NCBI GenBank assembly: GCA_033220425.1
Contig: CM065651.1
Span: 372,001 to 436,000 of the forward strand
Direction of reading: 5' to 3'
From: Lepraria neglecta
Lineage: Eukaryota > Ascomycota > Lecanoromycetes > Lecanorales > Stereocaulaceae
Length of the DNA: 64,000 bases
The notes below the pieces were generated by a model that ran no database searches, was not told the origin of the DNA, and was given only the letters and a program-made list of their open reading frames with translations. This document shows, in pieces, positions 42,798 through 45,109 of the stretch (positions are counted from its first letter, which is position 1; the number at the start of each line of letters is the position of its first letter). Made by a program: the position numbers and the translations under genes.

Positions 42798-45109
42798 ATG
42801 TCCTCAACAACTCCACTTCCAGTCGGCGTGGGCTATGGCGTCGTTGTGGGAATCGGGTTCTTTTTTGCCTTTGTTATGTGCGGTATCTCATACATTCAGG
42901 TCTGTACCGCTCCAACCAGGCATATTTTAGAAACTCCGACTCACAAATCTGTAGAATCGATATACTCGATTCTCTACCAAGACGAGCGAAGAATTCAATA
43001 CCGCAAGTAGAAGTGTCAAACCTGGCCTAATTGCGAGTGGAATTGTCTCAGCATGGACTTGGGCCGCTACACTACTGCAGTCAGGCACAGTCGCTTATGA
43101 GTATGGCGTGGCAGGGCCCTTTTGGGTGAGTTCTTGATTGGGATCGTTTATCCCTTTTTCTGGAAGGCATTGACTCACGTCTTTTCGTAGTGTACGTCTT
43201 TTCGGAGTCCAATTTTCCTCTTTTGACCTAAGTTCTGAGCCTTGAAGCATGTCTAGAGAGCAAAGGCTCCCAAGACATGTCTCAGGCCTCCAGATCCCGT
43301 CTTAAACAGGCAACACTGACTCCGAAATTATTATCTAGATGCCGCTGGTGCAACGGTCCAGATATTGATGTTCTCAATATTGGCATGCAAAGTTAAGCAG
43401 AATGCACCAAGATGCCATACGTATTTGGAGATCATTTACACCCGCTATGGAGTTGTGACTCACTGGATTTACATCTTTTTCGCTCTGCTCACAAACGTAC
43501 TTGTGAGCAGCCAGCTTCTTTTGGGCGGAAGCGCGGTAGTCACATCGCTTACGGGCATGAATGTCTACGCTGCGATCTTCCTAATACCACTTGGAGTTTG
43601 CGTCTATGTTGTCCTCGGAGGCCTGCGCGCTACGTTTCTCTGTAAGTCGCGCCTCCCTCACGTGCTCAGTGCTGGTAGTATTAATGTGTTTCGATAGGCG
43701 ACTACTCCCACACGCTGATCCTCATGGTAATCATTCTCTACTTCATGTTTTCAGTCTACGCAACAAATTCTCAGATCGGCTCGCCATCCGCAATGTACAA
43801 CTTACTCAAGGAAGCCGCCGCCAAGCGTCCAGTTTCTGGCAACCAAGACGGCTCATATGTCACCATGAAGAGTAACTTCGCTCTGATCTTTGGCATCATT
43901 CAACTATGTTCTGGCAGCGGGACTGTTTTCTTGGATCAGGCCTATTGGCAGAGAGCTATTGCTAGCCGGCCTACCACCGCCGTCAGAGCATATATCCTCG
44001 GCGGTCTGGCTTGGTATGCCATCCCCTTCGGCTTTGCAACAACCCTAGGTCTCGCGGCAGTTGCTCTTACCGATTCCCCATCTTTTCCAACCTACCCCAA
44101 CACGATGACGCAAGCACAGGTCTCCGCCGGCCTCTCTACTCCCTTCGCCGCAACTGCTCTCCTAGGAACCGGAGGCGCCGTTGCGTTACTAATTGTATTA
44201 TTCATGGCAGTCACATCCTGCGCCTCGGCCGAACTCATCGCCGTCTCCTCGATCTTAACTTTCGACATCTACAAAACATACCTCAAGCCCACCGCAACAG
44301 CCGATCAGCTAATTTTCGTCGCACACATCGGTATCGGTGTATGGGGTTTCGTCATGGCCATTTTCGCCTGCATCTGGAACGCCATCGGCATTGATCTCGG
44401 GTGGCTCTTCCTGGTGATGGGCTTGCTTATCGGTGGAGCTGTTTTCCCTGCAGCATTTGCTATCACGTGGAAGGGGCAGACGAAAGCGGGCGCGATTTCT
44501 GGTGCTGTGGTGGGATTGTGTGCGGGACTGGTTGCATGGCTGGTTACTGCGCATCAGTACTATGGAAGTCTGAGTGTGACGACGACGGGGATGGAGTATC
44601 CGACACTGGCTGGCAATCTGGCGGCTATCATGACGGGATTGATTGTCACTGTGTGCGTATCTCTTGCCAAACCGGTACCTTTCGATTGGGATCAGACGAG
44701 GCTTATCAACGCACCCTCCATCTCGGCAACGGCAACTCCAAGCGTTGCTTCCTTAGACAAAGAGAACCCGAACAAAAACAGCGACCTGCCTACTGTGAGG
44801 GACGAAGAGAAGGAAATGATCGAGGACGAGGTTGCGGTGGAAGAACCGTCGAAGCTCCGGCGGGCTTTCAAGGTCGCTTGTATTGCTTCTTTCCTGCTTA
44901 CATTCGTCATGGACTTTTTGGTTCCCATTCCAATGTTCTTGTCACACTACATCTTCTCCCAAGGATTCTTCGTTGCGTGGGTGGTAATCACATTTTGCTG
45001 GGTCTTTTGCTCTACAGCCATCTCAGTAATACTGCCGATTTGGGAGACAGCTGGTTTCTTTAGGGATTTGTATAGAGAGGTTGTGAAAGGGGAGAGGGCA
45101 AGTAGGTGA
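42798..45109 (+). CDS. DUR3: Urea/proton symporter Dur3 (sodium:solute symporter family)
   Basis: Exons 42798-42899, 42955-43125, 43191 alone, 43339-43641 and 43698-45109 give 662 residues with about 15 membrane segments. Recognisable stretches include [67 protein letters not shown] and [26 protein letters not shown], typical of fungal Dur3. The protein takes up urea (and polyamines in yeast) across the plasma membrane with protons and is normally induced under nitrogen limitation. Between TGG (Trp) and ATGCC the conserved Tyr requires one T. The only arrangement with GT..AG introns on both sides is introns 43126-43190 (65 nt) and 43192-43338 (147 nt) around a single-nucleotide exon. A hydrophilic acidic loop precedes the last two helices. 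The first intron has the unusual donor GTCTGT. Confidence 0.9.

Follow-up and report, generated by a model that had tools for sequence, protein, structure and literature searches.

A predicted one-nucleotide exon beside an introner-like element in the DUR3 gene of Lepraria neglecta

One-nucleotide exons represent the lower limit for splicing. The window, that is, the whole stretch of 64,000 nucleotides of Lepraria neglecta DNA that was analysed, contains a DUR3 urea-transporter gene on the + strand (42798-45109), in which a single T at 43191 seems to serve as such an exon. Two questions are raised by this locus: whether the base is an exon at all, and how an exon of one base could have come into being between two introns.

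The DUR3 gene and the base at 43191

The exons and introns of DUR3 are listed in Table 1. With T43191 retained, the product has 662 residues, and when fully spliced it matches three Urea-proton symporter DUR3 sequences of the PDB with E-values of 5e-153 to 8e-149, the exon 5 product matching the same three at 1.9e-81 to 1.9e-79. An earlier note on this DNA had described the junctions, and its description holds: exon 2 ends with TTT TGG (43125) before the donor GTGAGT at 43126, and the T lies in CGTAG-T-GTACGT. The note's TCTAG followed by AT GCC GCT is likewise present, with the coding sequence resuming at 43339 and not at 43338, which is the last base of TCTAG. The start of exon 4 at AT GCC GCT is fixed, because 43338 is its sole usable acceptor, being the only AG upstream of the conserved AAGATVQI that keeps the exon open. 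Since exon 2 ends with the whole codon TGG and exon 4 starts with AT, one base is missing. The direct join of GTGAGT to CTAG was rejected because it shifts the frame, and the protein soon stops when T43191 is removed from the joined gene.

Table 1. Features of the DUR3 gene in the window, with the proposed one-nucleotide exon and the repeat beside it.
Feature	Position	Strand	Remarks
Exon 1	42798-42899	+	34 codons, starts ATG; aligned to PDB DUR3 chains
Intron 1	42900-42954	+	55 nt, donor GTCTGT
Exon 2	42955-43125	+	57 codons, ends ...GVAGPFW
Intron A	43126-43190	+	65 nt, GTGAGT...TTGAC...CGTAG; found once in the genome
Proposed one-nucleotide exon (T)	43191	+	First base of the Tyr codon TAT
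Intron B, assigned to the introner-like elements (ILE)	43192-43338	+	147 nt, GTACGT...CTGAC...CTAG
Exon 4	43339-43641	+	Begins AT GCC GCT GGT
Intron 4	43642-43697	+	56 nt
Exon 5	43698-45109	+	Stop TGA 45107-45109; 100% self match and PDB DUR3 matches
Direct repeat, first half	43177-43191	+	15 nt, ACGTCTTTTCGTAGT, ends in the exon T; partner 43194-43208 in intron B

The open GT-AG solutions were enumerated with the first donor at 43060 or later, a minimum intron length of about 40 nt and a middle exon no longer than 80 nt, which gave 45 solutions, one with a single intron and 44 with two. The pair 43126-43190 and 43192-43338 is the only one of the 45 that yields FWYAAG, and it also has the top splice-site score, the weights being those of a fungal consensus and not trained ones. 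The earlier proposal that the T, taken as an exon, restores TAT and closes the 662-residue frame is thereby borne out as the best of the 45. Larger microexons in the same gap were discarded, because among the 44 two-intron solutions only the T variant gives FWYAAG. The residue at issue is conserved: Tyr follows FW in all 80 archaeal relatives kept from 94 found, a set with many close kin, found with two search patterns of which one prescribed GPFW and left the next residue free. Tyr also stands there in the three aligned plant-type DUR3 chains of the PDB (3/3) and in the DUR3 paralog of the same genome (C7:2265500-2270500), which reads TGG TAC without interruption and has no intron between FW and Y.

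The only in-frame single-intron solution runs from the weak donor GTTCTT to 43338 and replaces Tyr by Val-Asn, as the earlier note had read it, with the donor starting at 43130 instead of 43131. This solution is very improbable: its donor is poor by the fungal consensus weights, it passes over the donor at 43192 that is defined by a repeated intron family, it drops the Tyr present in the 80 archaeal relatives, the three DUR3 chains and the paralog, and it adds a residue where the archaeal, PDB and paralog alignments show no gap.

What is found at 43191, then, is one frame-required base between an AG and a GT. When the interval was shuffled 5000 times with dinucleotides preserved, an AG-N-GT scoring as well or better by the same untrained fungal weights came up in 6 shuffles (0.12%), in one of which N was T (0.02%), and a bare AGTGT came up in range in 10%. 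Independent of splice-site scoring, 43192, where the second donor is proposed, is exactly where the homology of a repeated intron family begins.

The repeated family of intron B

Searched with 43120-43345, the window's own genome (11 contigs, 42.0 Mb in all) returned 24 matches, made up of the window itself plus copies on C2, C4, C5, C7 and C8. All of them are confined to the stretch from about T43191 through the end of intron B, and in most search rows the match starts with the T or the following G (query positions 72 and 73). None falls in intron A, and a query with intron A finds only itself. Over the searches with other copies, end patterns and a profile, the family comes to about 27 loci on C1-C8, a tally that includes three shortened or degenerate copies (L152, L154 and L155) and a third LYS2 copy identified by visual inspection and an 18-nt match.

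The family homology starts at GTACGT (43192) and stops at CTAG (43338), and full-length matches span 1-147. T43191 is thus left outside the element, which adds support to the one-nucleotide exon as the best gene model, the view already taken in the earlier note. In the window, the profile of 16 copies has a match whose ends are precisely 43192 and 43338 (E 9.6e-44); the profile's other matches there are insignificant except that on the reverse strand of 43192-43338, which is due to the inverted repeats of intron B. Every one of the 16 aligned copies starts with GT and ends with AG, and 36 columns are invariant. One copy outside this alignment, C2:4377350 (C2:4375862-4378996, about 1489-1635), lacks the usual GTACGT 5' end and is possibly re-spliced or broken. 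The 3'-end pattern had 20 genome matches against 0 for its reversed control, and the 5'-end pattern had 23 against 3 for the control. A T likewise precedes GT in 5 of 17 other copies, so a T in this place does not spoil the donor.

Intron B has subterminal inverted repeats and a central hairpin. Its predicted fold reaches -49.1 kcal/mol (z -5.63), and 0 of 200 shuffles are as low; the consensus fold of the 16 copies has 24 pairs, with a covariation term of only 0.13 and three pairs changing on both sides. The flanks of the copies are unrelated, and the target duplication is at most 2 nt in 17 copies (0 nt in 13, 1 nt in two and 2 nt in two). Judged by these characters, intron B belongs to the fungal introner-like elements (ILEs), being dispersed, splice-site-bounded, seamless and stably folded. 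In general features the family resembles the ILEs described for Dothideomycetes, consisting of dispersed, near-full-length copies inserted seamlessly into unrelated genes, with no target-site duplication, a stable fold, several copies in one gene and some internal shortening (PMC4457414; PMC9860276). The copies are not near-identical and give no sign of recent gain: the closest pair of the 16 shares 95.2%, and the DUR3 copy is 87.8% identical to the consensus. Degenerate families are included among the ILEs described in PMC4457414, so the divergence of intron B bears on activity and not on kind. Two shortened-looking copies, C1:1610780-1611150 (L152, about 76 nt) and C3:1784944-1785314 (L155, about 101 nt), are near ordinary intron size.

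Exact removal of the element in silico was carried out in genes for an enoyl-CoA hydratase, a multicopper oxidase, RLP24, LYS2 (three copies) and a sugar transporter. The separately searched flanks of the hydratase abut on ECH_1 at positions 184 and 188, with exactly the expected three residues missing and with the right half scoring below the Pfam cut-off. For the oxidase, the flank coordinates on Cu-oxidase_2 abut at 59 and 61, the gap being the split codon. Joined across the ILE, RLP24 (C4:865526-868668) aligns gap-free over 33 of 34 residues; here an ordinary intron is followed 27 nt downstream by the ILE, which leaves a 27-nt exon (1474-1500). LYS2 (alpha-aminoadipate reductase, C5:2237526-2240867) carries three ILEs at 1501-1640, 1694-1840 and 1890-2032, with exons of 53 and 49 nt between them, and joined over all three it matches TIGR03443 with E 5.4e-38, 68 residues standing against 69 profile positions. 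The joined fragment of the sugar transporter falls just under the Pfam cut-off and is one position off the profile. Several further hosts have flanks with no Pfam match or with a match on one side only; the PDB search with the LYS2 fragment returned nothing informative, and that for a thioesterase-like host gave a weak result. Comparison of the longest open frames on the two sides of the ILE gave agreement for 8 of 17 other copies, where about 5.7 would be expected, and comparison of codon-usage frames gave it for 11, 10 and 9 of 18 copies at three window sizes, where 6 would be. Both tests are weak and only slightly favourable, and in the second proper agreement is impossible for DUR3, whose left flank is intron A.

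Origin and splicing of the exon

The ILE family, its exact ends, the reading frame and the conserved Tyr are established by the sequence, and from them we infer the splicing of both introns, the order of their removal and the order of their gain. It is highly probable that T43191 is an exon lying between intron A and a seamlessly inserted ILE, and that both introns are spliced. The ILE would have landed between the first and second bases of the Tyr codon (T/AT), one nucleotide past intron A, which separates the Trp and Tyr codons and is of ordinary size. Before the insertion, the site would have read ...CGTAG-T AT GCC if intron A was present, or TGGTATGCC (TGG TAT GCC) if it was not. Two gains one nucleotide apart would give a one-nucleotide exon with no loss of a base and no cryptic site recruited, and with both introns out the message would read ...TTT TGG TAT GCC..., coding for the conserved FWYAAG. 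The earlier note had asked whether one ancestral intron was split here; the sequence suggests otherwise, intron B being a whole inserted element. The chance that one of about 27 random insertions falls exactly one base from an exon end is about 8%, as estimated from the six exon ends in 1989 coding bases of DUR3, which was assumed typical, so no attraction of the ILE to intron borders need be assumed.

Exon definition would need an exon far longer than a single nucleotide, and therefore intron definition with successive removal of the two introns is most likely. Either order of removal would leave a complete canonical partner intron. The twin-intron-like splicing put forward in the earlier note fits only loosely, since no splice site is missing from either intron. 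A true [D1,2] spliceosomal twin intron, in which intron A would split an external donor G/TGTACG, is scarcely credible: removal of intron A does give a string, GGTGTACGT, with GTGTAC one base into the exon, but the external donor would join TTTTG to ATGCC and produce TTT TGA, an immediate stop, and GTACGT, which starts two bases later, is by consensus the better donor as well as the family's own. None of this kind is among the 45 enumerated solutions, and the locus was not classed with the [D1,2] stwintrons.

A broken gene is a further possibility, in which the T is skipped or mis-spliced and mainly frameshifted RNA is made, the donor at 43126 being joined to 43338 with an early stop. Skipping of a 1-nt exon is easily imagined, and the presence of a second DUR3 gene means that the copy at 42798-45109 could be dispensable. 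Against this, no stop interrupts the remainder of the 662-codon frame, which resembles DUR3 throughout. The ILE copy is already 12% off the consensus and the frame is still open, which argues that DUR3 has stayed intact since the insertion, and we hold a broken gene to be quite unlikely.

The simple insertion leaves one feature unexplained, the 15-nt direct repeat beside the T. The end of intron A together with the T matches bases 3-17 of intron B at 14 of 15 positions, a value attained by 2 of 2000 shuffled versions of intron A. In the repeat test, the flanks of 16 other ILE copies score 4-7, against 12.5 at DUR3. The repeat may be due to chance, may have aided insertion or may be the trace of a partial duplication. 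Its presence directly on both sides of the junction, as ACGTCTTTTCG(T/G)AGT, would fit another birth of the exon, either by loss of an exon-end base with recruitment of a cryptic AG-N-GT within the intron or by tandem duplication of 17 nt of the ILE 5' end, the copy of which would create AG-T-GT with the T copied from ILE base 17. Such a birth is unlikely, because a plain insertion of the ILE between T and AT already restores the conserved codon without loss or recruitment. For the duplication, moreover, the original acceptor of intron A and the T following it must vanish, yet a branch-like motif and an acceptor, both normal, are still present in intron A.

Intron A may itself be a decayed ILE, and the comparisons with the family point both ways. 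Its global alignment to the ILE consensus beats 994 of 1000 shuffles, and beside 43 control introns picked ab initio it comes first by raw score and second by z. The ILE profile search gave no match to intron A, and its alignments with the three shortened or degenerate copies were not significant (p 0.33, 0.20 and 0.19).

Known tiny exons and the behaviour of introners

Single-nucleotide exons themselves are already known, and what is new here is a predicted one that adjoins an introner-like element. The earlier note had called such an exon notable in a fungus, which it is; it is not without precedent, as a single-nucleotide exon has been printed for CYP621A genes of Fusarium (PMC12940212). 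As described there, the CYP621A exon resembles that of DUR3 in being one frame-required nucleotide between AG and GT, within the codon of a conserved motif, in an ascomycete, and in having been revealed by out-of-phase exons with an intervening length above the usual intron size (PMC12940212). The CYP621A base is a G whose splicing is supported by reads from two species (PMC12940212), and the predicted DUR3 exon is a T. Base loss and recruitment of a cryptic exon are suggested by the authors for CYP621A (PMC12940212), whereas the downstream intron of DUR3 is recognisable as an ILE, so that an insertional origin can be traced in the sequence. A further single-nucleotide exon has been printed for Arabidopsis APC11 (PMC4674806), which is also flanked by AG and GT, restores the frame and is constitutive. 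APC11 is a plant gene in which the exon was proved by cDNA and reporter constructs (PMC4674806), whereas for DUR3 we infer the splicing, and no mobile-intron origin is traced in the account of the exon in PMC4674806.

Collemare et al. described three ILEs at distances of 1, 8 and 3 nt from positions where other species have introns (PMC4457414). The nearby intron is in another species in those cases, while in DUR3 both introns are in one gene, with the predicted 1-nt exon between them; DUR3 looks like a case of both having been retained. The [D1,2] stwintrons, as presented in PMC8469720 and PMC12403724, share with the DUR3 pair the back-to-back introns, the probable successive removal, the terminal symmetry and the seamless proliferation in ascomycetes. 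They differ in that the splice elements of DUR3 are uninterrupted and one exonic base stands between two complete introns. The literature searched on introners and microexons in fungi held no single-nucleotide exon tied to an introner.

The case of DUR3 suggests a likely route to exons of this size, namely the insertion of a mobile intron at a distance of one base from a neighbouring one, and the surviving neighbour intron bears on the disputed mechanism of fungal introners, RNA reverse splicing or direct DNA insertion. Opinion on the mechanism is split; according to Gozashti et al., fungal introners have been taken for RNA-based reverse-splicing elements, and the ascomycetes stand out as the outlier (PMC9860276). 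Reverse splicing into mature mRNA followed by cDNA recombination would erase the older intron. The second intron spared the first, one nucleotide away, which argues against insertion via spliced mRNA; so, provided that the two were independent gains, the later one would have entered DNA or unspliced RNA. The 27-nt exon of RLP24 and the 53- and 49-nt exons of LYS2 point the same way as the DUR3 case. Whether introner insertion beside existing introns, into DNA or unspliced pre-mRNA, is a general birth route of nucleotide-scale exons is in our judgement evenly balanced. In genomes with introners, genes with such exons will be overlooked or corrupted by gene prediction.

Single-sequence scans of genome_contigs and viral_contigs with the N-terminal region of DUR3 found no relatives. 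The archaeal relatives of the same region (80 kept of 94) are mostly Thaumarchaeota and 52-62% identical, and their closeness to the DUR3 of the window is striking.
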